This document shows, in pieces, positions 49,597-64,000 of a stretch of DNA of 64,000 nucleotides. Source of the stretch: Candidatus Eremiobacteraceae bacterium (GTDB lineage: Bacteria; Vulcanimicrobiota; Vulcanimicrobiia; Eremiobacterales; Eremiobacteraceae); the NCBI GenBank assembly GCA_035710745.1, contig DASTCX010000016.1, positions 186,001 through 250,000 of the forward strand, given 5' to 3'. The notes beneath the pieces are model-generated. The model did not search any database and had not been told where the DNA came from. It worked only from the letters and a program-made list of their open reading frames with translations. The position numbers were made by a program, and so were the translations under genes. Numbering within the stretch: the stretch's first letter is position 1; every line of letters begins with the position of its first letter.

Positions 49597-50412
49597 CTAG
49601 GCGATGGCGGCGACGCGCTCGAGGAACCGGTCGATGCGCGCTTTTTCGAAGCGCACGCCGATCGGCGGATGCGTCTCCGGCGCATGGAAGTCAGAGCCGC
49701 CCGTCGCGACGATCCCACGTTCGTCCGCGAACGCGTAGAGGCGTTGCTCATCGTCCGGCGTCGCCGTCGGGTGGACGACCTCGACGCCGTCTGCGCCGAG
49801 CTTGTAGATCTCTTCGAGGTGATGCGGCTCGCGTAAGCGATTCGGATGCGCGATGACGCAGATGCCGCCAGAACGGTGGATGAGGTCGATGATGTCGCCG
49901 GACGTCAGGCGCTTCAGTTTGACGAAGCCCTTCTCGCCGTCTGCGAGATACTTGTCGAAGGCCTCCTGGATATTGGAGACGATGCCCTTGGCGAGGAGCG
50001 CGCGCGCGAGATGCGGTCGGCCGACGCTCGACCCGCCCTTGACCTGCGCCTTGACGTCGTCGTACGAGACGGCGACGCCGAGGCCGTTCATGCGCTCGAT
50101 GATGGCACGCATGCGTACTTCGCGCTCTTCGCGCTGCTTGCGAAGCGCGGTGAGAAGCGGCGTGTCGTCCGACGTCACGCCGTAGGCCAACAGGTGCACC
50201 GTGTGCCCCGCGTGCTCCGTGTCGACTTCGAGACCCGGCACGCAGCGCGACGCGAGGTCGTCGGGAACAGGATACGCGGCGATCGTGTCGTGATCGGTGA
50301 TGCAGAAGAGTTCGAGATGCTTCGCGCGGATCTCGTCGAAGACGCGCTCCTTCGGCCATGCGCCGTCGGAGCACGTCGTGTGCATCTGGAGATCGACGAG
50401 CATTTCGCTCAT
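49597..50412 (-). CDS. PHP-domain phosphatase, TrpH/YciV family (predicted PAP-degrading)
   Basis: 271 residues. Metal-binding motifs of the PHP fold are intact: [11 protein letters not shown] (H-x-H), FCITDHDT, the bridging Glu in PGLEVD, VIAHPNR and GGSDFHAP. Known members of this TrpH/YciV group hydrolyse the 3'-phosphate of 3',5'-bisphosphate nucleotides such as PAP and short RNAs. The ATG overlaps the cysC stop (ATGA), so it is translated with PAPS synthesis. I infer that it recycles PAP released by the sulfotransferases. Confidence 0.88.
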
Positions 50413-50981
50413 TTGGCGGCTGTTTGACGAAGGACGTCGGCGCGCAGGTAGCCGCGCTCGACGAGGTACGCCAGCACTTTCTCGGCGCTCTCGTCGGGGG
50501 TCTCGTCATTCGTCATGAGATGGACTTCGGGGGATTCCGGCGGCTCGTACGGATCGGACACGCCGGTGAATTCCTTGATCTCGCCGCGGCGTGCCTTCGC
50601 GTACATCTCGACCTTGCCGTCGCGCGTCTCGCAGATCTCGATCGGGCAATCCGCGTAGACCTCGATGAAATCGTCGCCGACCATCATGCGCAGCTCGTCG
50701 CGCGTCTGGCGATAGGGCGAGATCGCGGAACAGATGACCGCGACGCCGTTGCGCTCGAGCAGATGCGCCACAAAGCCGATGCGGCGGATATTCGTGTCAC
50801 GGTCCTCTTTCGAGAAGCCGAGGCCCTTCGAGAGGTTCGTCCGGACGACGTCGCCGTCCAACGACTCGAATTTGCGCCCGCCCGCGCGGATGCGCTGTTC
50901 GAGGATCCGCGCGATCGTCGTCTTGCCGGATCCGGAGAGCCCGGTGAACCAGATGATGAAACCCGTGTCCGTCGTAGCCAA
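50409..50981 (-). CDS. cysC: Adenylylsulfate kinase (APS kinase)
   Basis: 190 residues from TTG 50981, which has AGGAG about ten bases upstream; the longer open frame adds about 98 improbable residues. Walker A is GLSGSGKTT, followed by [20 protein letters not shown] (the APS-binding D-G-D-x-x-R region) and [12 protein letters not shown]. The enzyme phosphorylates APS to PAPS, the sulfate donor. The sat gene is nearby and the four sulfotransferases follow. Confidence 0.95.
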
Positions 50982-51323
50982 ACTCGTATCGCTCCTCGTC
51001 AGAAGTGTGCCGGCGCTAGTAGGTCCGACCCTCATTTGTGGCGCCGCGTGACAGCCCTGTCCGTCCATGGTCCGCACGGCCCCGCATCGGCCCTTTCGAG
51101 GAATTTCGGCGGGTACGGCTAGGACCAGTAGACCGGTCGTCCCTTTGCGTGGTTCGTTCGTGAGGGACGGTGAGCTTACCGTCGGCCCCGACCGGAAAAG
51201 TCGCATGCTGCGACCCCGCTCACGGTTGCAACAGCGAGACGACGCCGCGCGTATAAGCAGACAACCGGGCGACATCTGTCGCCCCGGTTTAGGCCGACCG
51301 CGGCATGGCGGGAGTCAGCGGAC
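50982..51323. other. Divergent intergenic region between cysC and the secreted-protein gene
   Basis: 342 bases without a gene. Several well-formed stems cluster at 51138-51289 (listed separately). The cysC Shine-Dalgarno is at its left edge and a GGGAG for the rightward gene at its right edge. GTATAA at 51251 could be part of a rightward promoter, but no well-spaced -35 is seen. Confidence 0.6.
51138..51289. ncRNA. Candidate structured RNA or attenuator region
   Basis: Stems: CGTCCCT (51138-51144) with AGGGACG (51163-51169); GTGAGC (51170-51175) with GCTCAC (51218-51223), enclosing the hairpin GTCGCA-TGC-TGCGAC (51200-51214); and AACCGGGCGACA (51263-51274) with TGTCGCCCCGGTT (51277-51289, one bulge). 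This density of stems exceeds what is seen elsewhere. Which strand is transcribed is unknown; it would lie in the leader of cysC or of the 51324 gene. Confidence 0.35.
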
Positions 51324-52286
51324 ATGTTCGTCGCAAGAACGATTGCGCTCATCGTCGGTTTCACGATCGCGGTCGTCGTAGCTGCAAGGCCGGCTCCGGT
51401 CGACCTTAATGGTCGACCGCTCCGTGCCAACATCGCAAGAATCATCGCGACGATCGATGGTATGAAATCGTCCGCGCCGCTGGCGACCGCAACGCTCTCG
51501 CCGGACGAGATCTATTCTAAGTCCGTCCACGAGATGCGATCACTCGCACACACCGGCAACCCGCCGTATCTCGTCTTCGACTTGCATCTCGTCAGCCACA
51601 ACCTTCATTGGTATCCGCAGACGGATGACGGGCTGACGGATTGGGAAGTGAGGCTCGTCCACGCGAACGAGACCGCGGACTATCGCGTCTGGTATCGATC
51701 GAAGGACGAGCGAGCGCTCGTCCAAGACGCTGCGACGCACGCGGCTTACGAAGGCGAGTCGCCTTTCGCGCCGGAGACGACCGACTTCTCGGACATGACG
51801 GGCACGAAGTCGACACCACTGCCATCGCCCTCACCTGCCGCGGGCAAGGCAAGCGACGCGCCGGCCCAAGTCATCGGCGCGATCACCGTCAACGGAAGCC
51901 AGCATTACGCGATCGATCTCGTCGGCATGGAACAGCGTGACGGGAGGCAGACGTATCACCTCCATCTGCGTGCGTTCCGTGACGCGATGGATTATCCGCT
52001 GACGGATCTATGGGTCGACTCAAGCGACTATCGGATCGTCGGCGCGCACGGCGAGGTGACCGTGCGAGCGGTCGCTGCGCTCTTAGGCGTCGGCGTCACC
52101 GCGGACTTCGCGCAGGCTGATAAGTACTGGCTCGTCTCGACGATGGATGTGTCGCTCAAGGGCTACATCGCATTCTGGCATGCGAATACGGAGACGTCGA
52201 TGACGGCATCGGTCGTGTCGATCCCGGCGACGTTGCCCGAGAGCTACTTCAAGAACGCCACGACGCCGGCGTCGGCGCATCGTTAG
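51324..52286 (+). CDS. Predicted secreted protein, unknown function, with an embedded repeat
   Basis: 320 residues from ATG 51324 with GGGAG upstream. A signal-like helix (TIALIVGFTIAVVVAA) is followed immediately by RPAPVDLNGRPLRAN, encoded by an in-frame copy of the REP-like palindrome (51397-51419). The mature domain has LHLVSHNLHWYPQTDDGL and long beta strands, consistent with a periplasmic LolA-like or outer-membrane carrier fold, but I recognise no family with confidence. It lies between cysC and sat. Confidence 0.7.
   Translation: MFVARTIALIVGFTIAVVVAARPAPVDLNGRPLRANIARIIATIDGMKSSAPLATATLSPDEIYSKSVHEMRSLAHTGNPPYLVFDLHLVSHNLHWYPQTDDGLTDWEVRLVHANETADYRVWYRSKDERALVQDAATHAAYEGESPFAPETTDFSDMTGTKSTPLPSPSPAAGKASDAPAQVIGAITVNGSQHYAIDLVGMEQRDGRQTYHLHLRAFRDAMDYPLTDLWVDSSDYRIVGAHGEVTVRAVAALLGVGVTADFAQADKYWLVSTMDVSLKGYIAFWHANTETSMTASVVSIPATLPESYFKNATTPASAHR
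51397..51419 (-). repeat. REP-like hairpin inside the 51324 gene
   Basis: CGGTCGACC, loop TTAAT, GGTCGACCG. It encodes PVDLNGRP just after the signal helix, where extra residues are tolerated. Confidence 0.88.
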
Positions 52287-52298
52287 CGGACGGCCGCG

Positions 52299-52322
52299 GC
52301 GGTCGAGATAAATCTCGACCGC
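52299..52322 (-). repeat. REP-like hairpin
   Basis: Core GGTCGAGATAAATCTCGACC between convergent genes, flanked by CCGCG on the left and TCC on the right. It could serve as a bidirectional terminator. Confidence 0.88.
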
Positions 52323-52335
52323 TCCCCGGCTTTTA

Positions 52336-53499
52336 TTACGAGACGGTCGTCGACATCGCGGAGATCAGGACGTCCGCAACCTCGGGCCGCGAGAACTCTT
52401 GCGGAGGACGCTCGCCGGCGCGAAGCATGTCGCGGACCTTCGTGCCCGACAGCGCGACGTGGTGCGCCTTGTCGTGCGGGCATGTCTTCGTCGTCGCCAT
52501 CCCCTCGCAGACGTTGCACCAGAACGAGTGCTCGAAGCGGAGGATCGTAACCCCGAGTTCGCTCTCGATGCCGTCGAAGATCTGCTGTGCGTCGAAAGTG
52601 CCGTAATACGAGCCGACGCCCGCGTGATCGCGGCCGACGATGAAGTGCGAGCAACCGTAGTTCTTGCGCGCCGTCGCGTGGAGCACCGCTTCGCGCGGCC
52701 CGGCGTAGCGCATCGCTGCCGGGAAAACTGAAAGCACCGTCCGTCCGAGCGGATAATATTTCTCGAGCAGCACGTGATAGCAGCGCATGCGGACGTCCGC
52801 GGGAACGTCGTCGCCCTTCGTCTTGCCGACGAGCGGGTGAAGGAGCAAGCCGTCGACGATCTCGAGCGCGACCTTCTGCAGATACTCGTGCGCGCGATGC
52901 ACCGGGTTGCGCGTCTGAAAGGCGACGATCGTGCGCCAGCCGAGCTCTTGGAATTTCGCGCGCGTCTGCGCGGGCGTCATCGTCTCCGCCGGGAACTGCG
53001 GCGCAGGCATCTTGAGCAGCGTGATCTTGCCCGCGACATATCGAGGACCAGCCTCGAGCACAGCAGCGACGCCCGGATGCTCTTTGTCGCTCGTCCGATA
53101 GACCTTCTCGGCTTCGCGCGCCGGATCGCCCTCGAAGACCTCGTCGATCGCGATCGTCGCGATGACGTCGCCGGTCTCATCGACGAGCGCCGCGGTCGAG
53201 CCGGCTTTGACGTCCGCTCCCCTGACCGGCAGAACGATCGGCATCGACCAGATAAGACCGCTTCGCAGTCGCATGTCGTCGACGACGCTGCGATAGTCGG
53301 CCGATCCCATGAAGCCTTCAAGCGGTGAGTACGCACCGGTCGCGATGCAGATGACGTCGCAGATCGATCGATCGCTCAGCTCGACGCGCGGCATCGACCG
53401 CGCCGCAGCGAGACCTTTGCCGGCGGCATCGGCATCGGCGACTCGGTTGACGAGCGTGCCGCCGTGCGGCGCGACGAGAGCCGGTTTGGGATCAGGCAC
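52336..53499 (-). CDS. sat: Sulfate adenylyltransferase (ATP sulfurylase)
   Basis: 387 residues from GTG 53499, preceded by GGAGG five bases upstream. The substrate motifs are QTRNPVHRAHEYLQK and HFIVGRDHAGVGSYYG, with FEHSFWCNVCEGMA and CPHDKAHH Cys/His residues typical of the single-chain bacterial/archaeal enzyme. It makes APS from sulfate and ATP, the first step to PAPS. It converges on the secreted-protein gene and diverges from the first sulfotransferase. Confidence 0.95.
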   Translation of the reverse strand: MPDPKPALVAPHGGTLVNRVADADAAGKGLAAARSMPRVELSDRSICDVICIATGAYSPLEGFMGSADYRSVVDDMRLRSGLIWSMPIVLPVRGADVKAGSTAALVDETGDVIATIAIDEVFEGDPAREAEKVYRTSDKEHPGVAAVLEAGPRYVAGKITLLKMPAPQFPAETMTPAQTRAKFQELGWRTIVAFQTRNPVHRAHEYLQKVALEIVDGLLLHPLVGKTKGDDVPADVRMRCYHVLLEKYYPLGRTVLSVFPAAMRYAGPREAVLHATARKNYGCSHFIVGRDHAGVGSYYGTFDAQQIFDGIESELGVTILRFEHSFWCNVCEGMATTKTCPHDKAHHVALSGTKVRDMLRAGERPPQEFSRPEVADVLISAMSTTVS

Positions 53500-53674
53500 A
53501 AGGTCCTCCAGGACGCGCGAAGAGGCGTCGACGTTCTAGAACGATTCGGGGAGTTCGCACTTCAACCAGCCTCGCGACCCATCCCTGCGAAGCGAGCGAC
53601 CTCATGACCATAAGATGGATACGATGGGCCACGATTTAGGAGAAGCGGCCCCACGTGCGGAAGGTGTTGCCGGG

Positions 53675-54643
53675 ATGAGATCGACGCTCCGGACGATCGC
53701 GGCTGGTTTGAACCACGTGTTTAGGCGCGTGCATTTCGACCTTAATCAAAGCATCACCGCGACGACTTTCGTCGCGGGAACGGGTCGCAGTGGGACAGCC
53801 TGGGTCGCGAACATCGTCAACTACGATCATAGTGCCCGCTACATATTCGAGCCGTTCAATCCGTTCAAAGTGCCCGAATGCGCGGGATTTCGCTACCGCC
53901 AATACCTCCGCCCCACCGAGACGGCCGAAAAGTATGTCGGTCCTGCGCGTATAATCCTGAGCGGTCGAATAACAAACGATTGGATAGACCAGTTCAACCG
54001 CGCCGTGGTCAGCCGGCGGCGGGTCGTCAAAGAGATCCGCGCCAACCTCATGCTCAAATGGTTGAAGGAGAGATTCCCGGGCATCCGGCTCATCATGATG
54101 TTCCGACACCCATGCGCCGACGCGTACTCCCGCTTGCGCCTCGGTTGGCAGAGCCACCTCGACGAGCTGCTGGCGCAAGACGACCTCGTCGCCGATCATC
54201 TCGCGCCGTTCGTCGCCGAGATGCGCGCGGCGCGCACGCCGTTCGAACAGCACGTCTTCCTTTGGTGCGCTGAGAACTTCGTGCCGCTCCGACAGCTCGA
54301 GCCAGGCGACGCCGCATTCGTCTTTTACGAGAACTTGTGCACCGATCCACAGGGCGAGGTCAAGAAGCTTTTCGGTTTCCTGAACCGCGAGGTGACACCC
54401 GAAGTGTACGGCCGGTTGGCACAGCCGTCCGAGCTCACAAGCGAGGAGAGCGCGGTCAACAGCGGCGGCGACCTCATCGAAGGTTGGCGCAAGTCCGTCG
54501 ACGCGCGACAAGCCGAGCGCGCGATCGACATCCTCCGTCTCTTCGGCCTCGATCGGATCTATTCGCTCGACACGTCGATGCCCGACGTCGCCGCAGCGAC
54601 CGCGATGGTCGGCGCGCGCCCTGCACCTGCGGGCGTGGGCTGA
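53675..54643 (+). CDS. PAPS-dependent sulfotransferase 1
   Basis: 322 residues from ATG 53675, chosen because its N-terminus then matches the length of the sibling proteins (ATG 53615 would add 20 residues). The PAPS 5'-phosphosulfate loop is AGTGRSGTAWVANIVNYD and the 3'-phosphate motif is FRHPCADAYSRLR. RYIFEPFNP follows the loop as in all four paralogues. No membrane helix is evident, so it acts in the cytoplasm, presumably on a lipid- or nucleotide-linked glycan. Confidence 0.88.
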   Translation: MRSTLRTIAAGLNHVFRRVHFDLNQSITATTFVAGTGRSGTAWVANIVNYDHSARYIFEPFNPFKVPECAGFRYRQYLRPTETAEKYVGPARIILSGRITNDWIDQFNRAVVSRRRVVKEIRANLMLKWLKERFPGIRLIMMFRHPCADAYSRLRLGWQSHLDELLAQDDLVADHLAPFVAEMRAARTPFEQHVFLWCAENFVPLRQLEPGDAAFVFYENLCTDPQGEVKKLFGFLNREVTPEVYGRLAQPSELTSEESAVNSGGDLIEGWRKSVDARQAERAIDILRLFGLDRIYSLDTSMPDVAAATAMVGARPAPAGVG

Positions 54644-54660
54644 CGAGGCGAACGGGGCGC

Positions 54661-55659
54661 ATGGGTTCGATCCGAGACTGGCTCAAAGGACAGTTGTCGC
54701 CACAGGTGCGGCAGCAGATCAAGCGCGTCGTCAATTGGCCGCCGATCATCGACGTCGGCAAGTTGAGCGATGCCGTCTTCCTGGCGGGAACGGGCCGAAG
54801 CGGCACCGGTTGGGTCGCGAACATCATCAACTACGACAACCGCTACCGCTATATGTACGAGCCGTTCTCGCCGCGCGTCATCGACACGGTCGCCGCGTTC
54901 ACGTGGGGGCTGTACATCCGGCCCGACGATCGATCCGAGAAGTATATCGAGCCGGCGCGCCGGCTCCTCGAAGGCAAGGTCGGGCACTATCCGAAGCTCG
55001 ATCGCGCGAACAAGCGCATGTTCGCCCGTAAACGCCTGCTGAAGGAGACGCGGGGCAACCTCTGGCTCAAGTGGCTGCGCGTCAACTTCCCAGAGGTGAA
55101 GATCGTCCTGCTCATGCGCCACCCGTGCGCTGCGGTCAACTCGCGCATCAAGCGCGGCAACCTCGTGCTCTTCGATCAATTCCTCCAGCAGCCGGAGCTG
55201 ATGGCCGATCACCTCGCGCCGTTCAAGGCCGACATCGAAGCAGCGCGGAACGCGGACGAGTTCAGCAAGCGCATCTACATGTGGTGCGTCAACCACTACG
55301 TGCCGCTGCGGCAGTTCGCTGCGGGCGAGATCCACCTCGGCTTCTACGAGAACTTCGCCGAGAATCCGAACGACGAGATCCGCAAGCTCTTCGCGTTCCT
55401 CGGCGAGCCCTTCTCCGACAAGATTTACGAGGCGGTGAAGCGGCCGTCGGAAGTGACGCGGCCGGACGCCGCGATCCTCACCGGCAAGAGCATCGTCGGA
55501 CATTGGCAGGAAGAGGTCGGCGCCGAGCAGACCCGCCGCTCGATCGACATCCTGCGGCGCTTCGGTCTCGACGCCATCTACGACGAACAGCCGATGCCGA
55601 AGGTCGACGCCGAGCATGCGTTTTTCTCGGCGCGCGAACCCGCTACGCGTCCCCGATGA
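54661..55659 (+). CDS. PAPS-dependent sulfotransferase 2
   Basis: 332 residues starting MGSIRDWLKGQLSPQVRQQ. The 5'-PSB loop is GTGRSGTGWVANIINYD, then NRYRYMYEPF, with the 3'-PB motif RHPCAAVNSRIK. Highly similar in plan to the gene before it, 17 bases upstream, so the two form an operon created by duplication. Its 3' end overlaps the convergent glycosyltransferase gene. Confidence 0.88.
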   Translation: MGSIRDWLKGQLSPQVRQQIKRVVNWPPIIDVGKLSDAVFLAGTGRSGTGWVANIINYDNRYRYMYEPFSPRVIDTVAAFTWGLYIRPDDRSEKYIEPARRLLEGKVGHYPKLDRANKRMFARKRLLKETRGNLWLKWLRVNFPEVKIVLLMRHPCAAVNSRIKRGNLVLFDQFLQQPELMADHLAPFKADIEAARNADEFSKRIYMWCVNHYVPLRQFAAGEIHLGFYENFAENPNDEIRKLFAFLGEPFSDKIYEAVKRPSEVTRPDAAILTGKSIVGHWQEEVGAEQTRRSIDILRRFGLDAIYDEQPMPKVDAEHAFFSAREPATRPR

Positions 55660-56869
55660 CGCGCTCGTGCATCGCGACGATTCGGTCCGCGATGCGCGGC
55701 CAATCGTAGTCCGCCGCTCTCGACATCCCGCCGTCGCGCAATCGCGCCCATAGCGCGTCGTCCTCGATGACGCGCGCGCAATCGCGTGCGAACATATCGG
55801 CGTCGTCAACCGACATGAGGTCCGAGCCGCTTTCGTGCGGCAGTCCTGAAGCGCCCGACGGTGTCGTGACGACGGGTCTTCCCGCAGCCCACGCCTCGAG
55901 CAGCCGCAGCCTCGAACCGCTCGCCGCGAGCACCGGCACCGCGATGACCTGAGCGCGCGACAATTCGTCACGCATGTCGGGCGGATTCGGCACGAGCACG
56001 AGACGCGGGTGCGCGCGCAGGCGCTCGACGAGCGCCGGCGTCATCCGCCCTGCGACGCGGACTTCGACCGGCACGCCGCCCGCCGTCTCCGGCAAGCGCG
56101 GCAGCACGTGCTCGACGAACCACATCAGGCCTTGTTGCGTCGGACGCCAGTCCATGCTTCCGGTGAGCGTGATGCACCCGCGCTTCGGCGCTGCCGAGCG
56201 AACGGTCGCATAGCGCGCGACGTCGACGCCGTTGGGGATGACGGTCGACTTCGACGCCGCGCCGGCCCAGAGTTTCTCGAGATCGTCGACATCGTCTCCG
56301 CTGCACGCCGACACGTGGATCGATCGCTCGACGATCCTACCCTCGACGCCGCCGACGCGCGCCGCGTCGATCCGGACGAGCGCGCTCATCGGCCAGCGTT
56401 CGTAGTCGGCTTGACGGCGCACGAGCGCCGACTCGCAGTTGTGCGCGTCGTACCAGACGGGCGGGCAGTGCGTGCGCGGCAGCGCCACGTGTTGGTTGAG
56501 GTCGCCGACGTGGATCGCCGCGTACGCCTGCTCGCGGCACATGCGCGCGACGTGGTCCGCTTGCGCGCGCGTCACTTGGCCGGCGCTGAAATACGAGTTC
56601 GACGGCCGCAACGCATCGGCGATGCGGAGCGCCGTGTACGCGAGGCCTTGCGGTCGCGCGAAGCTCGCGATGGACGCGCACGCTGCGGCGAATTCGGGCG
56701 GCGGCGTCGAGTCCGCTTGCTCCGCGACGACGAGATCGAGTTCGTATCGGCGCGCGACGCCGATCGCCATCCAATAGTTGCGGATGAGCGCGCCGCCGTT
56801 GAGCTTCCATGGCGCCTGCTGGACGAGCATCAGGTATCGCCGCTTCGGACCGGATCCGGAAGCGTTCAT
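55643..56869 (-). CDS. Glycosyltransferase, GT-B fold (GT4-like)
   Basis: 408 residues from ATG 56869 (overlapping the stop of the upstream gene by ATGA). The N-terminal half holds LMLVQQAPWKLNGGALIRNY, and the C-terminal half the GT4 marks STVIPNGVDVARY, GSMDWRPTQQGLMWF and the E-x7-E-like segment LRLLEAWAAGRPVVTT. It transfers a sugar from a nucleotide donor, probably to the sulfated glycan. Confidence 0.88.
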   Translation of the reverse strand: MNASGSGPKRRYLMLVQQAPWKLNGGALIRNYWMAIGVARRYELDLVVAEQADSTPPPEFAAACASIASFARPQGLAYTALRIADALRPSNSYFSAGQVTRAQADHVARMCREQAYAAIHVGDLNQHVALPRTHCPPVWYDAHNCESALVRRQADYERWPMSALVRIDAARVGGVEGRIVERSIHVSACSGDDVDDLEKLWAGAASKSTVIPNGVDVARYATVRSAAPKRGCITLTGSMDWRPTQQGLMWFVEHVLPRLPETAGGVPVEVRVAGRMTPALVERLRAHPRLVLVPNPPDMRDELSRAQVIAVPVLAASGSRLRLLEAWAAGRPVVTTPSGASGLPHESGSDLMSVDDADMFARDCARVIEDDALWARLRDGGMSRAADYDWPRIADRIVAMHERVIGDA

Positions 56870-57984
56870 CCGGCGCGGCGTATCCCGACGGCCTCGCGAT
56901 AGACGGCCGCATACTGCCGTTCGACGACGCTCATGCGAAAACGTTCGAGAAACCGTCGCCTTGCCGACTCTCCGAGCCGCGCTCGCAGCGCGTCGTCGTC
57001 GCGCAGCCTTCGGACGCCGCCGAAGATCGATTCGGGATCCGGCGCGACGAGCAATGCGTCGACGCCGTCGCGAACCGCCTCGCTCGTCGCGCCGACGTTC
57101 GTCGCGACGATCGGAAGACCGGCGCGCATCGCCTCGAGGAGCGAGAGGCTTAGACCTTCCGTGAACGACGGCTGCACGTAGATGTCGAGCGCATCGAGAT
57201 ACGCGTCCGCCTCGGCGAGAAAGCCGAGGCACGTCACGTTGATCGGCGCCGACGCGCGCAATTGCGCCTCGAGCGGGCCGCTGCCGGCGACGGCCCAGCG
57301 GACCGTATCCGCACCGTCGAGCCGCGCGGCATTCGCGAAATTGTCGACCCCTTTTTCTGCCGACAACCTACCGAGCATGCCCGCGACGAACTCGCCGCTT
57401 CTCCAGCCGAACGTCGCGCGCGCTGCGGTGCGAGCCGCTTCATCTGTCGCGGGGCCGTCGGCGATCGCGTTCGGCACGAACCTCGTCCGCACGCCGCGGC
57501 CGAACGAGCGCAGCATGCCGGGATCGGGCGCGGTGACGAGATCGCTCATGCCGCCGGTCATGCGATCGAGCGCGTTGTAGAGGCGAAGCTTGACGTCCGT
57601 CGTGACGAAGCCGTGGCACGTGCCGATGAGCGCCGCCATCTTCAAGCCCGACGTCCGCCCGAAACGGCCGACGATGTTCGCCTTGTAACCGTGCGTGTGG
57701 AGGACGGGCGCTTTCGCGGCATCGAGCGCATCGCGTAGCGCGCGAAGCACACGCGTGGGCAGCGTACGCTCTTCGTCGCTCAGGACGTCGACGCGGAAGC
57801 CTTCGTCGCGCGCCGTCGCGGCGAGCGAACACGGCGCGAGCACCGCGAGTCGCGCATCGACGTCGCCGGCGTCGCGCTGCGCGCGCATGAGCCAATGGAT
57901 GACGCGCTCTTTGCCGTACATGACCTCGCCGCCGCCGGACGCTTCGACGAGATGCATGACCGTGACGTCGGGATCGCGCGCCAT
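56866..57984 (-). CDS. Glycosyltransferase family 4
   Basis: 372 residues. VMHLVEASGGGEVMYGKERV at the start is the acceptor-side loop; the C-terminal half has RFVPNAIADG, GMLGRLSAEKGVDNF and the donor-site motif FTEGLSLSLLEAMRAGLPIV with E-x7-E. A GT-B enzyme retaining the anomeric configuration of its donor. It is co-translated with the next glycosyltransferase and is divergent from sulfotransferase 3. Confidence 0.92.
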   Translation of the reverse strand: MARDPDVTVMHLVEASGGGEVMYGKERVIHWLMRAQRDAGDVDARLAVLAPCSLAATARDEGFRVDVLSDEERTLPTRVLRALRDALDAAKAPVLHTHGYKANIVGRFGRTSGLKMAALIGTCHGFVTTDVKLRLYNALDRMTGGMSDLVTAPDPGMLRSFGRGVRTRFVPNAIADGPATDEAARTAARATFGWRSGEFVAGMLGRLSAEKGVDNFANAARLDGADTVRWAVAGSGPLEAQLRASAPINVTCLGFLAEADAYLDALDIYVQPSFTEGLSLSLLEAMRAGLPIVATNVGATSEAVRDGVDALLVAPDPESIFGGVRRLRDDDALRARLGESARRRFLERFRMSVVERQYAAVYREAVGIRRAG

Positions 57985-58064
57985 GAGGCTGGTGTTGGCA
58001 ATTTCGACTCGCCATCCTTGCGGCCGGAGGGAGGCGCCGGCGGTGCACCAAACAACGACGGAAC

Positions 58065-59096
58065 ATGGCGTTCGTCTCCGAAGGCGTGAAGCAGCGGCTG
58101 CGCCCGTATTACCGCAAACTGCGCAGCTCGCTCATCGTCGACCGCAACGGCGACTGGCGGAAATCGATCTTCGTCTCATCCGGCGCGCGCACCGGCAGCA
58201 CGTGGGTGTCGCAGCTCATCAACTACGACAACCGCTATCGCTACATGTACGAGCCCTTCATCTCGATGCCGCTCGGCTATCCGGAGATCCTCACCGCGCT
58301 GCCGGACAATCGCATCCTCTACCTGCGCCCCGCCGACGACAACGCGAAGTACGTCTCGCAAGCCGAATACATCATCAGCGGGCGCTTCCACCACCCGCGC
58401 ACCGACATGTACAACGCGCGCTTCTTCGTCGACAAGCGGCTCGTCAAGGAAGTGCAGAGCAATCTCTGGCTCAAGTGGCTCAAGGTCCACTTCCCTTCGA
58501 TGCCGGTCGTCTTGTTGTTGCGCCATCCTGTGCCGACGATCCGTTCGCGCTATGCCGAATACTTCGACCTGCCCGTCGAGCGGCGCGGTGCGATCGACGA
58601 CGACGTCGCAGCGCGCAACGCGCACTATCGCGAGCTCGTCTTCGGCCAAGCCGATCTCGTCGCCGATCATCTCGAGCCGTTGCGCTCGGCGCTCGAGGCG
58701 GCGGAAACCGTCATGGAGCAACGTGCCGTCGTCTGGTGCATCCAGAACTACGTGCCGCTGCGGCAATTCGCGAGCGGCGAGATCCTGTTGACCTTTTACG
58801 AGAATTTTTGCGTCGATCCCGAGAACGAGATCCGTCGCGTCGGCGCCCACCTCGGCGACCGCATCGACGACGAGAGCCTCGGACGCTTCCTCGATCGGCT
58901 GCGCCGGCCTTCCGCGAACAGCAAGCTCAAAGCTGAGATGCTCGACGGTTGGAAGATGGTCAGCTCGTGGCAGAAGAAGGCGCCGGCGGAAGACGTCGCT
59001 CAGACGAAAGCCGTGCTCAAGATATTCGGTCTCGACAAGATCTACGACGCGTCGGAACCGCTGCCGGACGTCGGCGCCGCGAACGCGTTCCTGTGA
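58065..59096 (+). CDS. PAPS-dependent sulfotransferase 3
   Basis: 343 residues. The 5'-PSB loop is SGARTGSTWVSQLINYD, followed by NRYRYMYEPFIS; the 3'-PB motif is RHPVPTIRSRYAEYF. It differs from the others by a longer central insertion (about residues 175-190). The stop overlaps the GTG of the HAD phosphatase gene, tying sulfation to sugar-phosphate metabolism. Confidence 0.87.
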   Translation: MAFVSEGVKQRLRPYYRKLRSSLIVDRNGDWRKSIFVSSGARTGSTWVSQLINYDNRYRYMYEPFISMPLGYPEILTALPDNRILYLRPADDNAKYVSQAEYIISGRFHHPRTDMYNARFFVDKRLVKEVQSNLWLKWLKVHFPSMPVVLLLRHPVPTIRSRYAEYFDLPVERRGAIDDDVAARNAHYRELVFGQADLVADHLEPLRSALEAAETVMEQRAVVWCIQNYVPLRQFASGEILLTFYENFCVDPENEIRRVGAHLGDRIDDESLGRFLDRLRRPSANSKLKAEMLDGWKMVSSWQKKAPAEDVAQTKAVLKIFGLDKIYDASEPLPDVGAANAFL

Positions 59097-59632
59097 CGCC
59101 CGGTGCGCGAGCGCTCGCGTGGCGATCGCCGCAGGCGCGCGCAGGAAAGGTGTGCGTCTTCATCGATCGCGACGGCGTGGTCAACGAGCGACCGGGTGAT
59201 GGGTACGTCCTCGCCTGGGAAGAGTTCCGCTTCAGACCCGATGCGATCGCCGCACTGCGCGTGCTCGCGGAAGCCCAGCTCCCGGCGATCGTCGTGTCGA
59301 ATCAGAGCTGCGTCGGTCGCGGCCTGCTGAAACAAACCGGCCTCATCGACATCATGGACCGGATGACGCAGCAGCTCGAGCGCGAGAACGCGCCGCTCGC
59401 CGCATGGTATTGCTGCCCGCATGCGCCGGATGACGGCTGCGATTGCCGCAAGCCGCAACCGGGGATGCTCCTTCGCGCGATCGCCGAGTTCGGCTTCGAC
59501 GCATCGCGCTCGCACATGATCGGCGACACGGTATCCGACATCGCTGCGGGCGAGTCAGCCGGCTGCATCACTCACCTTATCGATCCGTCCGACCCTAACG
59601 CATTCCTGCGCACCGTCACTGATATCGTCTGA
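59093..59632 (+). CDS. HAD phosphatase, D,D-heptose 1,7-bisphosphate phosphatase (GmhB)-like
   Basis: 179 residues from GTG 59093. HAD motifs: FIDRDGVVNERPG (motif I, nucleophilic Asp), VVSNQSCVGRG, and HMIGDTVSDIAAG (motif IV). The zinc-binding loop YCCPHAPDDGCDCRKPQPGM is diagnostic of the GmhB group. These enzymes remove a phosphate from heptose or related sugar bisphosphates before nucleotide activation. No other heptose gene is in the window, so the substrate is uncertain. Confidence 0.87.
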   Translation: MTPGARALAWRSPQARAGKVCVFIDRDGVVNERPGDGYVLAWEEFRFRPDAIAALRVLAEAQLPAIVVSNQSCVGRGLLKQTGLIDIMDRMTQQLERENAPLAAWYCCPHAPDDGCDCRKPQPGMLLRAIAEFGFDASRSHMIGDTVSDIAAGESAGCITHLIDPSDPNAFLRTVTDIV

Positions 59633-59648
59633 TGGTTGATGATAAAAT

Positions 59649-59735
59649 GTGGTATGCCGAGCTTCGCTCGGAAACTGCCGAGCTTCGCTCGGCATACCAC
59701 GTCAGATAAACATCAGACAAACATCAGACAAACAT
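59649..59735. repeat. Large inverted repeat with two embedded hairpins, then 11-bp tandem repeats
   Basis: GTGGTATGCCGAGC (59649-59662) pairs with GCTCGGCATACCAC (59687-59700). Inside lie two copies of the GCCGAGC-TTC-GCTCGG element. Directly after come CAGATAAACAT and two copies of CAGACAAACAT (59703-59735). The block separates two convergent genes, a place for a bidirectional terminator. Confidence 0.88.
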
Positions 59736-59753
59736 TATAGATTTACGATCGAT

Positions 59754-60740
59754 TCAGCGCAGCACGGGTTCGAACGAGGGCGGCTTGACGAAGATGCCGC
59801 GCAAGAACCCGAGCGTCCACGCGATCTGGAAACATGGGAAGGCCACCGCGCATCCCAGTGCCACGCGCAACGGCCGAGTACGGTCGCGTAGCGCGACGAC
59901 CGCCGCCGCATACAATAGGTAGAGCGCGAAGTCGATCCACCACCACGGCGTGAATAGCATCCCGATCGCGCCGACGAGCAACGCGGCCGGGATGAAATGC
60001 CGCACCCGCAGCTCGTGCGGGAAACGGCGGCTCGTCTGCGCTCGCCAAAAACCGTAGCCGCCCCATTGACGTATCGTCGCGCCGATGCCGCGGTTCACTT
60101 TGTAGAGGTTGGCGGACGGCACGAGCAAGAGCGTGTAGCCCGCGTCGCGCAGACGCGCTTCGAGCTCGGAGTCTTCGTTCGCGATCCATCGCTCGTCGAA
60201 ACCGCCAAGCTCGAAGAGCAGCCCAGGCCTCCACGATCCCAGGTAGACGGTCTCGACGGGCACCGGTTCCTTCAAGGCGCGCACGCCGATGCGCGCGAGG
60301 CCGAGCGGATGCGTGAGGAGCTCGCCGACGACCGAACGCTCGAAATCCGGCGTCGGCGCCGGGATCTGCGCGCAGCCCACGTTGCCGAGCTGCGATGAAC
60401 CGGATTCAAATGCACGCACGACGTCGGCGATGTACGTCGGACCATACGTCGTGTGCGCGTCGAGCCGGACGATGAGTGCATCGCGCCCTGCTCGCTCCGC
60501 GCCGACGTTGAGCGATATCGGGATGCGCTTGCGCGGATTGAGGACGACTTCGCCTTCGACGCCCGACGATGCGAGCCATCGCTCGACGATCTCGCGGCTC
60601 GAGTCGGTCGAACCGCCGTCGACGGCGATGAAGCGCATGCGCGAAGCGTCGAAGGTCTGCGCCCCGATGCTCGCGAGCGTCTCGGGAAGATCGACCGCTT
60701 CGTTCAGCATCGGCATGACAAGAGCGACGCGGGCCGTCAT
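59754..60740 (-). CDS. Glycosyltransferase family 2, ExoA-like
   Basis: 328 residues from ATG 60740 (GGA seven bases upstream); the longer frame adds 45 unlikely residues. The GT-A core shows ALVMPMLNEAVDLPETLASI, FIAVDGGSTDSS and VRLDAHTTYGPTYI. Two C-terminal membrane helices (about residues 252-290) anchor it. This plan is like succinoglycan ExoA and similar exopolysaccharide transferases. Confidence 0.9.
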   Translation of the reverse strand: MTARVALVMPMLNEAVDLPETLASIGAQTFDASRMRFIAVDGGSTDSSREIVERWLASSGVEGEVVLNPRKRIPISLNVGAERAGRDALIVRLDAHTTYGPTYIADVVRAFESGSSQLGNVGCAQIPAPTPDFERSVVGELLTHPLGLARIGVRALKEPVPVETVYLGSWRPGLLFELGGFDERWIANEDSELEARLRDAGYTLLLVPSANLYKVNRGIGATIRQWGGYGFWRAQTSRRFPHELRVRHFIPAALLVGAIGMLFTPWWWIDFALYLLYAAAVVALRDRTRPLRVALGCAVAFPCFQIAWTLGFLRGIFVKPPSFEPVLR

Positions 60741-60874
60741 AATTAGTCCGAAAGGCTCGCAGTAATTCGCGTCGCACGCACGGTAATGTCGAGGCATATG
60801 CGCTGCGTCGCTGGGCGAGTCGGTTTTGCGGGGCACTCGAGGCGTCCTGCACGCCCGAAAATGAGCCGGCGCCA

Positions 60875-61846
60875 TTGATCGCGCGATTTAAGCGCCGAGC
60901 CGGACGCGCAAAGCGGCGCGTCGTCGGCGTCATCCACCAGCTTCACGTAGATGCCGGCGGCGATCATCGCGCGACGACGTTCCTCGCCGGCAGCGGCCGC
61001 GGCGGCACGACCTGGATCGCCGAGCTCATCAACCACGCGAACGAATACCGGTTCATGTTCGAGCCGTTCACGTCGCGACATGTCCCCGAAGTCAAAGCGT
61101 TTCTCAATCGACAATACATCCGGCCCGGCGACGACGACCCGGCGTTCGTGAAGCCCGCGCGCGAGATCGTCGAAGGGCGCATCCGCAATCGTTGGGTCGA
61201 CTACTACAACCACCGTTTTGTCGCGCGACGGCGGCTCATCAAAGACATCCGCGCGAACATGTTCCTCAAGTGGCTCGACGTCCATTTCCCAGGCATGCCG
61301 ATCGTCTTGCTGCTGCGCCATCCGCTCGCAGTCGCGGCGTCGCGGCTTCGCCACACGTGGTCGAACGATCTCGCCGGCTTCCTTCGACAAGAGGCGCTCA
61401 TGGCCGACCACCTCGAGCCGTACCGGCATCTTCTCGAGACGGTTCGCGATCCGTTCGAGCAGCACGTGCTCCAGTGGTGCGTCGAGAACTGGATCCCGCT
61501 TCGTCAGTTCCAGCGCGGCGAGCTGCACCTCGCGTTCTACGAGCATTTCAGCGTCGACCCGCGCGGGGAGATCGGACGGCTCTTCGCGTTTCTCGGCAAA
61601 CCGTTTCCGGAGAAAATTCTCGAACGGGTCGAGCGGCCATCGCGGATGGCATGGACGGCAAAGGGCGTCGTCTCGGCGCTCGGAGATCCCGACTCGTGGC
61701 GGCCGTACGTCTCGCCGGGCGAGATATCTCGCTCACTCGACATCCTCGCGCAGTTCGGCTTCGACTCCGTCTACTCGGCCTCGTCGCTCCCGAACCGAGA
61801 CGCCGCAGAATCGTTGTTTCCCCAGCCGATAGGTCTTAAGGCCTAA
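60875..61846 (+). CDS. PAPS-dependent sulfotransferase 4
   Basis: 323 residues from TTG 60875. The 5'-PSB loop is AGSGRGGTTWIAELINHA, followed by EYRFMFEPFTS; the 3'-PB motif is RHPLAVAASRLRHTW. The N-terminus is strongly basic (MIARFKRRAGRAKRRVVG), perhaps membrane-associating. It is transcribed away from the ExoA-like gene. Confidence 0.87.
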   Translation: MIARFKRRAGRAKRRVVGVIHQLHVDAGGDHRATTFLAGSGRGGTTWIAELINHANEYRFMFEPFTSRHVPEVKAFLNRQYIRPGDDDPAFVKPAREIVEGRIRNRWVDYYNHRFVARRRLIKDIRANMFLKWLDVHFPGMPIVLLLRHPLAVAASRLRHTWSNDLAGFLRQEALMADHLEPYRHLLETVRDPFEQHVLQWCVENWIPLRQFQRGELHLAFYEHFSVDPRGEIGRLFAFLGKPFPEKILERVERPSRMAWTAKGVVSALGDPDSWRPYVSPGEISRSLDILAQFGFDSVYSASSLPNRDAAESLFPQPIGLKA

Positions 61847-61900
61847 CAACCCTGGTCCGATTGGGCCCCTTGACCCGCCTTTCTAGGGTTGACCCGTACT

Positions 61901-61928
61901 TTGACGTGTAATGCTCCCCAGGTAAAAT
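61901..61928 (+). promoter_or_regulatory. Predicted promoter of the wecC-like gene
   Basis: TTGACG (61901-61906), a 16-base spacer and TAAAAT (61923-61928). Two additional TTGACC hexamers lie just upstream (61870 and 61889), 19 bases apart, possibly regulator half-sites. Confidence 0.6.
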
Positions 61929-61970
61929 GGAGCGACCACCGCGGACGCGGGGTCCCGTCGACATGCCCAT

Positions 61971-63308
61971 ATGAGGGTCTCAGTTAGAGTGAAGGTCAGC
62001 CTACTCGGCCTCGGATACATCGGTCTGCCGACCGCGGCGATGCTCGCGCTCGGCGGGCACGAGGTTTCCGGCTTTGATGTCAGCCCGCGCGTGCGCGCCG
62101 GACTGCGTCGCGGCGGCGAACATGTCGCCGATCTCGAGGTCCGCAAGCTTGCCGTCGACGCGCTAGCGACCGGCCGCTTCTCGGTCGCTGACGAGATAGA
62201 ACGATCGGACGCCTACATCATATGCGTGCCGACGCCGAACGCCGTCGACGGCAGGCCCGACCTGACGTACGTCCACGACGCGACGGCAGCCATCGCCCCG
62301 ATGCTGCGCAAAGGCGACCTCGTCATCCTGGAATCGACAGTACCGCCAGGGACGATGGACCGAGTCGTCGCCGGCGCGCTGCGCGAACACGGCGTCTCGC
62401 CCGACGACGTGCTGCTCGCCCACTGCCCGGAGCGCGTCATCCCTGGCGCGATCGTGCGCGAGCTCAAAGAGAACTCACGCATCATGGGCGGTCGCACGCC
62501 CGAGGCCGCGCGTGCCGCGAAAGATCTGTACGCGAGTTTCGTCCAAGCAGACATGTTCGAGACCGATTGCACGACCGCCGAACTCGTGAAGGTCATCGAG
62601 AACACGTTCCGTGACGTCAACATCGCGCTCGCAAACGAACTCGCGTTATTGTGCGAAGAGCTCGGCATCGACGCGTGGGAAGCGATCTCGCTTGCGAACA
62701 AGCACCCGCGCGTCAACATCCTCCAACCCGGTCCGGGAGTCGGCGGACATTGCATACCGATCGATCCGCATTTCCTCGCCGATGCAAACCCGTTCCTCAC
62801 TGAGCTCATCCAGACCGCGCGCCGCGTCAACGCCCGGATGCCGAATCACGTCGTCCGCCGCATCCGCGAGCTCGTGCCCGAATCCCAAGCTGGCGCGAAG
62901 ATCGCGCTTCTCGGCGCGTCGTATAAGGCGAACGTCGACGATTCGCGCGAGAGCCCGACCGAGCGGATCGACGAGCTGCTCCGCGAGCATGGTTACGAGA
63001 CCGCGATCTACGATCCGGTCGCGTCGGGATTCAAGCGGCCGCTCGCGCCGACGCTCGAGTCGGCGCTCGAACGCGCCGATGCGCTCGTGCTCGTCGTCGA
63101 TCACGACGCGTTTCGCTCGCTCGATCCCGCCGAGGTCGCGAAGTCGATGCGAGGGCGCATTATCATCGACGCGCGTAATCTGTTCGATCCGGTCCGCTGG
63201 GAACGTGCAGGCTTCGAAGTCCACACCCTGGGCCGCAGAAGCGACGCGAAGCAGCGACCCTCACACGCGGGCGAACGGCCGAAGCGCGTGACCGCAGGGA
63301 TGTCATGA
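61971..63308 (+). CDS. wecC: UDP-N-acetyl-D-mannosamine dehydrogenase-like nucleotide-sugar dehydrogenase
   Basis: 445 residues. The NAD loop is SLLGLGYIGLPTAAML; ESTVPPGTMDRVV and VIENTFRDVNIALANELALL are WecC-type motifs, and the catalytic Cys is in GPGVGGHCIPIDPHF. A C-terminal domain carries GASYKANVDDSRESPT. The enzyme oxidises a UDP-sugar to a uronic acid in two NAD steps, giving an acidic sugar for the surface glycan. It closes the glycan locus. Confidence 0.92.
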   Translation: MRVSVRVKVSLLGLGYIGLPTAAMLALGGHEVSGFDVSPRVRAGLRRGGEHVADLEVRKLAVDALATGRFSVADEIERSDAYIICVPTPNAVDGRPDLTYVHDATAAIAPMLRKGDLVILESTVPPGTMDRVVAGALREHGVSPDDVLLAHCPERVIPGAIVRELKENSRIMGGRTPEAARAAKDLYASFVQADMFETDCTTAELVKVIENTFRDVNIALANELALLCEELGIDAWEAISLANKHPRVNILQPGPGVGGHCIPIDPHFLADANPFLTELIQTARRVNARMPNHVVRRIRELVPESQAGAKIALLGASYKANVDDSRESPTERIDELLREHGYETAIYDPVASGFKRPLAPTLESALERADALVLVVDHDAFRSLDPAEVAKSMRGRIIIDARNLFDPVRWERAGFEVHTLGRRSDAKQRPSHAGERPKRVTAGMS

Positions 63309-63929: not shown

Positions 63930-64000
63930 TGATACTGCATCATATCACTCGAAGTATGCGTACAACGGCTCTCGTCATATGCGCCGCGCTGCTGGCATGC
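63930..64000 (+). CDS. Start of a possible lipoprotein gene, cut by the window end
   Basis: An open frame from ATG 63930 (GGAAGG just upstream) or from ATG 63957 reads MRTTALVICAALLAC, a signal peptide ending in a lipobox-like LLAC. Only 23 codons are visible. In this context it may be an envelope protein of the glycan-export pathway, but that is a guess. Confidence 0.4.

Follow-up and report, generated by a model that had tools for sequence, protein, structure and literature searches.

A probable locus for a multiply sulfated, Wzy-type surface polysaccharide with its own PAPS supply in a Candidatus Eremiobacteraceae bacterium

Gene content and conservation of the locus

The window analysed here, a stretch of 64,000 nucleotides, belongs to a MAG (2.97 Mb, 97.9% complete, 41 contigs) of a Candidatus Eremiobacteraceae bacterium (G000) from the little-cultured phylum Eremiobacterota. 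The genes at positions 49597-63308 (Table 1), which a preliminary description of the window had singled out as a block, form the left end of a locus of about 42 kb (C16:235597-277293), the remainder of which extends past the window. Taken as a whole, the locus comprises Sat, CysC, a PHP phosphatase, seven paralogous sulfotransferases, several glycosyltransferases and a near-complete Wzy-type export apparatus. Gene calls and profile matches bore out the previously named sat and cysC genes, the two GT4 and the GT2 glycosyltransferases, the GmhB-like HAD phosphatase and the WecC-like dehydrogenase. The end of cysC and the start of the PHP gene share 4 nt. A synteny comparison placed a LolA-like gene between sat and cysC in G000 and G012 only; its product is probably a bystander, as the gene is not found at this position in other genera.

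Table 1. Features of the locus within the window (positions in the window unless marked C16)
Feature	Position	Strand	Basis
PHP-domain phosphatase (PHP-II clade), predicted PAP phosphatase	49597..50412	-	NF041577 E=4.5e-46, below cut-off
cysC, adenylylsulfate kinase (predicted PAPS maker)	50409..50981	-	PF01583 E=1.9e-61; TIGR00455 above cut-off
LolA-like secreted protein	51324..52286	+	PF17131 below cut-off
sat, ATP sulfurylase (predicted APS maker)	52336..53499	-	PF01747 4.2e-99, PF14306 1e-49, NF003166 above cut-off
Sulfotransferase ST1	53675..54643	+	PF13469/PF00685
Sulfotransferase ST2	54661..55659	+	PF13469/PF00685
GT4 glycosyltransferase	55643..56830	-	PF13692; nearest NCBIfam TIGR03087, below cut-off
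GT4 glycosyltransferase	56866..57984	-	PF13692/PF00534
Sulfotransferase ST3, variant 5'-loop SGARTGSTW	58065..59096	+	PF13469 7.8e-10
HAD-IIIA phosphatase, GmhB/histidinol-phosphatase-like	59150..59632	+	TIGR01656, TIGR01662 above cut-off; GmhB models below
GT2 glycosyltransferase	59754..60740	-	PF00535 1.2e-14
Sulfotransferase ST4, beside GT2/WecC	60875..61846	+	PF13469
Nucleotide-sugar dehydrogenase (UDP-ManNAc/UDP-hexose dehydrogenase type)	61989..63308	+	TIGR03026 above cut-off; WecC model 378 bits, cut-off 459
Wza-like polysaccharide export gene, first bases only	63956..64000 (full C16:249956-250879)	+	PF02563 1.1e-24, SLBB

Beyond the window, the same contig carries three more sulfotransferases together with the export machinery, which consists of the outer-membrane exporter Wza (PF02563), the co-polymerase Wzc (Wzz and BY-kinase, TIGR01007 above cut-off), Wzy (PF04932), a priming transferase (TIGR03025 above cut-off) and a deacetylase. 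The locus thus unites the elements of a synechan-type cluster, i.e. a priming transferase, Wzy, a co-polymerase and an outer-membrane exporter, with sulfotransferases among the glycosyltransferases. Neither gene content nor TM counts revealed a Wzx flippase within C16:186001-284475.

The block recurs, whole or in part, in five other members of the family: the arrangement PHP-CysC-Sat-ST-GT-WecC-Wza-Wzc is conserved in G012, G004 and G005, is distributed across contigs in G006 and is partly retained in G013. A scattering of the sulfotransferases independently of the glycosyltransferases, which had been named as an outcome that would speak against a glycan locus, was therefore not observed. Counting against such a locus are G001 and G011, where the sulfotransferases do not reside beside Sat/CysC, and G003 and G010, which possess Sat/CysC without a PF13469 match. 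The divergent intergenic region between sat and ST1 aligns poorly between genera, and a single conserved upstream element driving both genes in all genera is, accordingly, unsupported.

PAPS synthesis and the sulfotransferases

The characteristic motifs are intact in both CysC (P-loop GLSGSGKT, DGDVVR) and Sat (QTRNPVHRAH, GRDHAG, SGTKVR), and profile searches identified CysC as a single copy in the genome. PF01507, which covers CysH and CysD, and PF01077 (sulfite reductase) had no match genome-wide. The absence of a PAPS reductase proposed for the window thus holds for the whole genome, and cysH or cysI genes beside the locus, which would have argued for sulfate reduction, are not found there or on any other contig. 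With one CysC and neither PAPS reductase, CysD nor sulfite reductase, PAPS is therefore left with sulfotransfer as its sole visible use; Sat and CysC without CysH and CysI is the pattern expected of PAPS synthesis dedicated to sulfation. It might be argued that an unrecognised PAPS reductase links Sat and CysC to assimilatory sulfate reduction, with the sulfotransferases as incidental users, and a MAG of this completeness and fragmentation could miss a gene. However, a CysH-grade PF01507 match is likewise absent from the other seven relatives with the same sulfotransferase family, in six genomes Sat/CysC lie near sulfotransferase or glycan genes, and class-wide the sulfotransferases track CysC, not CysH, so that we regard this explanation as highly improbable. 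The PF01507 matches of ~110 bits in relatives were read as CysD, and a CysH identity was rejected, because they adjoin CysNC; weak PF01583 matches of ~20 bits were set aside as other P-loop proteins and not counted as CysC. All eight genomes with this sulfotransferase family carry standalone Sat and CysC, and across the class CysC is present in 52 of the 55 genomes with PF13469, the three exceptions being only 68-79% complete.

The genome encodes nine members of the PF13469 sulfotransferase family, two of them on other contigs and seven within about 30 kb in the locus. As these 30 kb are part of a 2.97-Mb genome and synteny of the block extends to other genera, the clustering is not due to chance. 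All four sulfotransferases in the window score above the PF13469 cut-off. The preliminary description had assigned intact motifs to these four; this was confirmed for the 3'-phosphate-binding motif RHPxxxxxSR, which is present in all seven enzymes of the locus, but only in part for the 5'-phosphosulfate loop. GxGRxGTxW occurs in three of the four (the fourth letter after GR varies) and is replaced by a non-canonical loop in ST3; over the whole locus, four enzymes possess this loop and three possess A-R-[ST]-G-[ST]-T-W variants. Residues Arg42, Arg153, His154 and Pro155 are invariant across 55 homologs. The predicted structure of ST3 (pLDDT 94.2) had only sulfotransferases or retinol dehydratase, a member of the same family, among the 50 PDB matches listed, at a modest level of similarity (11-17% identity; TM-scores on the query no higher than about 0.5), and the comparison of ST3 with the PDB did not reveal the class of acceptor. 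No TM segment is predicted in the sulfotransferases. The enzymes are under strong purifying selection, with dN/dS values of 0.05-0.11 against the sister species across the six that were measured (ST1 0.107, ST2 0.076, ST3 0.063, ST4 0.108). ST1 and ST4 each form a supported ortholog group across two genera, by the tree and by synteny; ST1 is always divergent from sat there, as it is here. Plasmid and phage collections held no relatives of ST3, and recent mobile transfer is, thus, not indicated.

The preliminary description left open whether the product is an acidic, multiply sulfated surface polysaccharide or a glycolipid. Since Wza, Wzc, Wzy and the priming transferase share the locus with the sulfotransferases, we favour a surface polysaccharide. 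It is conceivable, by analogy with Nod factors or mycobacterial sulfolipids, that the sulfotransferases would instead modify small glycosides, a glycolipid or an LPS-like core, and that their position in the locus would reflect shared sugar precursors. Oligosaccharides or lipids do serve as acceptors for rhizobial and mycobacterial sulfotransferases (cited in PMC8205485), two of the enzymes are encoded outside the locus, and at the above PDB identities acceptor specificity is not readable from homology. Against this stand the interleaving of seven enzymes with the glycosyltransferases and the export and priming genes in a conserved order, and the lack of any visible lipid-A or Nod-type acceptor genes in the locus, and we consider such acceptors unlikely.

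A PHP protein as candidate PAP phosphatase

The predicted model of the PHP protein (pLDDT 92.5) is most similar in fold to RNase AM, the top match, followed by BAD_1165 and CV1693; its relatives include 7ug9 and 2yb1. Compared with the trinuclear site of RNase AM (ligands, including His13, from PMC9410882), eight of nine ligand positions are kept, while the position of His13 is occupied by Gln9, a glutamine in this family's copies. With 157 bits, the protein remains well below the cut-off of 400 of the equivalog model for 3',5'-nucleoside bisphosphate phosphatases (NF041577), and it is also below that for RNase RNM. It is under purifying selection as well (dN/dS 0.05 against the sister species).

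The presence of the PHP protein in exactly those 10 of the 14 family genomes that have Sat and CysC was dropped as a decisive link, as a class-wide search showed a ~35%-identical PHP paralog to be near-universal, and was replaced by an analysis of the PHP-II clade, which is distinct from this paralog (SH-aLRT 91). PHP-II occurs in 13 of the 117 genomes in the class; sulfotransferases are present in all 13 and CysH in one, and the gene usually lies beside PAPS-synthesis genes of two unrelated types, Sat-CysC or CysD-CysNC. This distribution supports the earlier prediction that the protein acts on PAP, whereas the substituted metal ligand and the NF041577 score do not. The same two features, the RNase AM fold, the RNase RNM score and the occurrence of the CysQ-family PF00459 in all 14 family genomes would fit a different phosphoesterase, such as a 5'-3' exonuclease like RNase AM/YciV, with the removal of PAP left to PF00459 or a further enzyme. 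As PF00459 is present with or without Sat/CysC and PHP-II is confined to genomes with sulfotransferases, we find this rather unlikely, albeit clearly less so than the alternatives above; it concerns a single component and is compatible with a sulfated-polysaccharide locus. In another lineage, a PF00459 gene adjoins ST-Sat-CysC.

Proposed pathway and comparison with known systems

The motifs, folds and gene content, the synteny and co-occurrence, the purifying selection and the lack of detectable sulfate-reduction genes together strongly suggest that the block is the left end of a locus for a Wzy-dependent, multiply sulfated extracellular or capsular polysaccharide, which provides its own PAPS and probably also disposes of PAP. 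Sat and CysC would convert sulfate and ATP to PAPS, while the priming transferase and the glycosyltransferases would build a lipid-linked repeat unit. The cytosolic sulfotransferases, seven from the locus and two from elsewhere, may then transfer the sulfo group from PAPS to sugars of the repeat unit, presumably before export; once the unit is flipped, Wzy would polymerise it and Wzc/Wza would carry out the export, and the PHP phosphatase would convert the inhibitory by-product PAP to AMP.

The description of bacterial surface glycan sulfation as little documented outside rhizobia, mycobacteria and some marine groups has to be revised in view of precedents for sulfated-polysaccharide clusters (synechan, PMC8205485; Actinoplanes wps-1, PMC13390465; Pontiella, PMC7356697). 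The literature presents bacterial sulfated polysaccharides as almost exclusive to cyanobacteria (PMC8205485, PMC13390465). Our literature search found nothing relevant on sulfation in Eremiobacterota. The xss cluster of Synechocystis sp. PCC 6803, genetically shown to produce the sulfated polysaccharide synechan, similarly is of the Wzx/Wzy type, with sulfotransferases among glycosyltransferase and export genes, but in a cyanobacterial host and with two sulfotransferases instead of seven; the text refers to no genes for PAPS synthesis in the cluster (neither PAPS nor cysC occurs in it) and lists no PHP phosphatase (PMC8205485). In the actinomycete Actinoplanes missouriensis, wps-1 combines Wzx/Wzy genes with two sulfotransferases of other families (heparan- and GlcNAc-sulfotransferase-like), and the adjacent Sat/APS-kinase-family gene AMIS_7390 is needed for normal sporangium formation; as here, the product is putative (PMC13390465). 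Archaeal Sat-CysC-pApase-TauE-sulfotransferase clusters likewise combine the synthesis of PAPS with the removal of PAP, and some archaea have a sulfotransferase within the cluster or next to it; their PAP phosphatase belongs to the DHH superfamily, and no polysaccharide export locus is described in the passages considered (PMC8268124). With the phosphoesterases CV1693 and RNase AM (2yb1, 7ug9, 9etk), the PHP protein has the fold, the eight ligand positions and the AHPxR arginine in common, but identity in the fold alignments is 22-30%, and it differs by the glutamine at the His13 position and its genomic link to PAPS and sulfotransferases.

More tentatively, it might be speculated that the family uses at least seven position-specific sulfotransferases to make an exopolysaccharide that is densely sulfated and resembles a glycosaminoglycan, that it lacks sulfate reduction and has kept sulfate activation for decoration only, and that a dedicated PHP-type PAP phosphatase with an altered metal site takes the role of CysQ or DHH elsewhere; this is possible, but we would not yet consider it probable. 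The locus represents a self-contained case in a phylum distant from cyanobacteria: in a cell without visible sulfate reduction, it brings together the supply of PAPS, the sulfotransferases, the assembly of a polysaccharide and, probably, the disposal of PAP. Its predicted product can be tested by chemistry, its sulfotransferases form a divergent set, and PHP-II is a candidate for a third, sulfation-linked class of PAP phosphatases. Should a sulfated capsule exist, one may speculate that it could play a part in how water and metals are retained where nutrients are poor.

Extent of the locus and its sulfotransferases

The window spans C16:186001-250000. The genome is a MAG of 2.97 Mb, and every gene listed in the preliminary description was found where it had been placed. 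Reading contig C16 (DASTCX010000016.1) to its end at 284475 revealed that the block extends past the window and that the locus (C16:235597-277293) is larger than its window portion, with seven sulfotransferases (ST1-ST7). Among named entries of the public collection, Candidatus Eremiobacteria isolate CRAIB_MAG119 is the closest relative, with 82-97% identity over the compared locus proteins. The species is represented here by MAGs only, and the evidence throughout is sequence.

Features of the locus beyond the window
Feature	Position on C16
Wza-like export protein	249956
Lipoprotein-like ORF	listed between Wza-like and Wzc-like genes
Wzc-like co-polymerase/tyrosine kinase	251871
CapD-like dehydratase	254059
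Nucleotide-sugar dehydrogenase, second copy	256124
Protein weakly glycosyltransferase-like	257467
Wzy	258429
DegT aminotransferase	259955
Secreted putative glycosidase-like pair, mutually similar, one GHL15 match	261405-262760, 265007-266287
ST5	262820
ST6	263956
GT4	266715
ST7	268095
GNAT-like protein, asparagine-synthase-like protein, two alpha/alpha-toroid-like proteins	listed between ST7 and glycosylphosphotransferase
Polyprenyl glycosylphosphotransferase	273699
XrtA-type polysaccharide deacetylase	275177

The secreted glycosidase-like pair, which flanks ST5 and ST6, is kept in genome G012, has relatives in G005 and G013, and possibly serves in trimming or release of the polymer. No protein with the size and number of transmembrane segments fitting a Wzx flippase was found from C16:186001 to the contig end. 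Directly 3' of the locus (C16:277397-282415), a PQQ-enzyme-like protein is followed by pqqB, pqqC, pqqD and pqqE-like genes, as judged by eye from the sequences.

Based on the 5'-loop, the sulfotransferases form two subgroups, GxGRxGTxW (ST1, ST2, ST4 and ST5) and A-R-[ST]-G-[ST]-T-W (ST3, ST6 and ST7). The motifs had been described as intact, which is the case except for the deviating 5'-loop of ST3 (SGARTGSTW). Two further members of the family are located outside the locus (contigs C38 and C25). Structural modeling of ST3 with 55 homologs was confident (pLDDT 94.2, pTM 0.92), and the PDB matches listed, in a comparison also run with sequence profiles, are either sulfotransferases or retinol dehydratase, itself of that family, at 11-17% identity, the best TM-scores among them being those to tyrosylprotein sulfotransferase (0.5 on the query). 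The modeled fold supports the sulfotransferase chemistry class and indicates nothing firm on the acceptor. As no transmembrane segments are predicted in the sulfotransferases, sulfation would be cytosolic and precede flipping.

Conservation and evolution of the locus

The locus sulfotransferase family occurs in 8 of 117 genomes of the class, all within the window's own family, and all eight possess standalone Sat and CysC, while CysC is missing from four of the six family members lacking these sulfotransferases (Fisher p = 0.015, phylogeny ignored). For the broader PF13469, CysC is present in 52/55 genomes, the three exceptions being 68-79% complete. Five relatives keep the block entirely or partially: the order PHP-CysC-Sat-ST-...-GT2-ST-WecC-Wza-Wzc is retained in G012, G004, G005 and, split over two contigs, G006, and partially in G013, with SecDF and a CDF transporter remaining as its neighbors there, whereas in G001 and G011 the sulfotransferases are located apart from Sat/CysC. 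Supported cross-genus ortholog groups exist for ST1 (SH-aLRT 98) and ST4 (SH-aLRT 99), and likewise for a clade of ST3, ST6 and ST7; thus, part of the sulfotransferase duplication predates the genera. Between this genome and G012, dN/dS is low for the six sulfotransferases measured (0.05-0.11), Sat (0.045), CysC (0.073) and PHP (0.048), indicating that these genes are maintained.

In other phyla, related sulfotransferases often reside among glycosyltransferase or nucleotide-sugar genes, in four cases near Sat, which is accompanied by CysC in KSB1 (L085), Desulfuromonadaceae (L088) and Lokiarchaeota (L126) and stands alone in L102. In L126, from an Asgard archaeon (JAFGBS010000019.1, 2396-14900), CapD-like and DegT genes are also close by, a gene set suggesting that sulfated glycans may occur there too. 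Further relatives are found in Heimdallarchaeota (L119, L122 and L125).

The PHP protein and PAP disposal

The PHP-domain protein (window 49597-50412, minus strand) shares 22-30% identity with the solved structures of RNase AM, a 5'-3' exoribonuclease, and CV1693, which hydrolyzes PAP (PMC8268124); RNase AM uses the same active site (PMC9410882). It falls below the NCBIfam equivalog cut-offs for both activities and was therefore filed in neither family. Since nearly all genomes of the class (102/117) carry a broad PHP paralog, its mere presence is uninformative. The clade comprising the window protein, PHP-II (SH-aLRT 91), is restricted to 13 genomes, all with PF13469 sulfotransferases and one with CysH; it is associated with sulfotransferases (Fisher p = 2e-5) and not with CysH (phylogeny ignored). 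Six members of the window's family have PHP-II adjoining CysC. In f3, another family, it lies by CysD-CysNC (a sulfurylase unrelated to Sat) in 5/7 genomes and by CysC/CysNC in a sixth; in G019 it is not near PAPS genes. A phosphatase at a sulfotransferase locus makes sense, as PAP inhibits sulfotransferases (PMC8268124).

All six family PHP-II copies (window, L127, L129, L133, L135 and L142) carry glutamine (Gln9) at the His13 metal-ligand position, the first histidine of the HxH motif, whereas all six f3 copies examined keep histidine. Gln9 could possibly reflect an altered metal site or substrate. With this caution, we consider it rather likely that the PHP protein is dedicated to PAP hydrolysis.

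Elsewhere, L186 (G046:C40, 5181-10848) encodes a run of TauE-like permease, sulfotransferase, Sat and CysC with a directly adjoining PF00459 (CysQ-family) protein, a putative PAPS/sulfotransfer module with a different phosphatase; similar ST-Sat-CysC runs occur in L187 and L188.

Known systems and the use of PAPS

Cyanobacteria are known to carry Wzx/Wzy-type clusters that include sulfotransferases, synechan having been proven genetically and chemically (PMC8205485), and similar clusters are predicted in Actinoplanes (PMC13390465) and Pontiella (PMC7356697). In archaea, Sat-CysC-pApase clusters, sometimes together with a sulfotransferase, have been reported with a DHH phosphatase (PMC8268124), in contrast to the PHP type of this locus. 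In the open-access literature, no description was found of a combination like the present one, in which a near-complete exopolysaccharide locus brings together its own supply of PAPS, seven sulfotransferases and a phosphatase of the PHP type; nor were sulfated glycans found to be reported for Eremiobacterota.

The genome encodes a single APS kinase. The lack of a PAPS reductase noted for the window extends genome-wide: PF01507 (PAPS reductase and CysD) gave no match, the identical search being positive in 14/14 control genomes, and PF01077 (sulfite reductase) likewise gave none, although absence from a MAG (97.9% complete) is never final. A CysH-grade match is also missing from the seven other genomes of the family that carry these sulfotransferases (G011 has one sub-cut-off match, 21 bits). 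Many genomes of g14, a genus of f3 (e.g. L189, G027:C1), carry a cysC-sat pair and PF13469 of another subfamily without a CysH-grade match. In the present genome, PAPS has one visible use, sulfotransfer, and genomes that make PAPS yet lack sulfate reduction may be common across the class.
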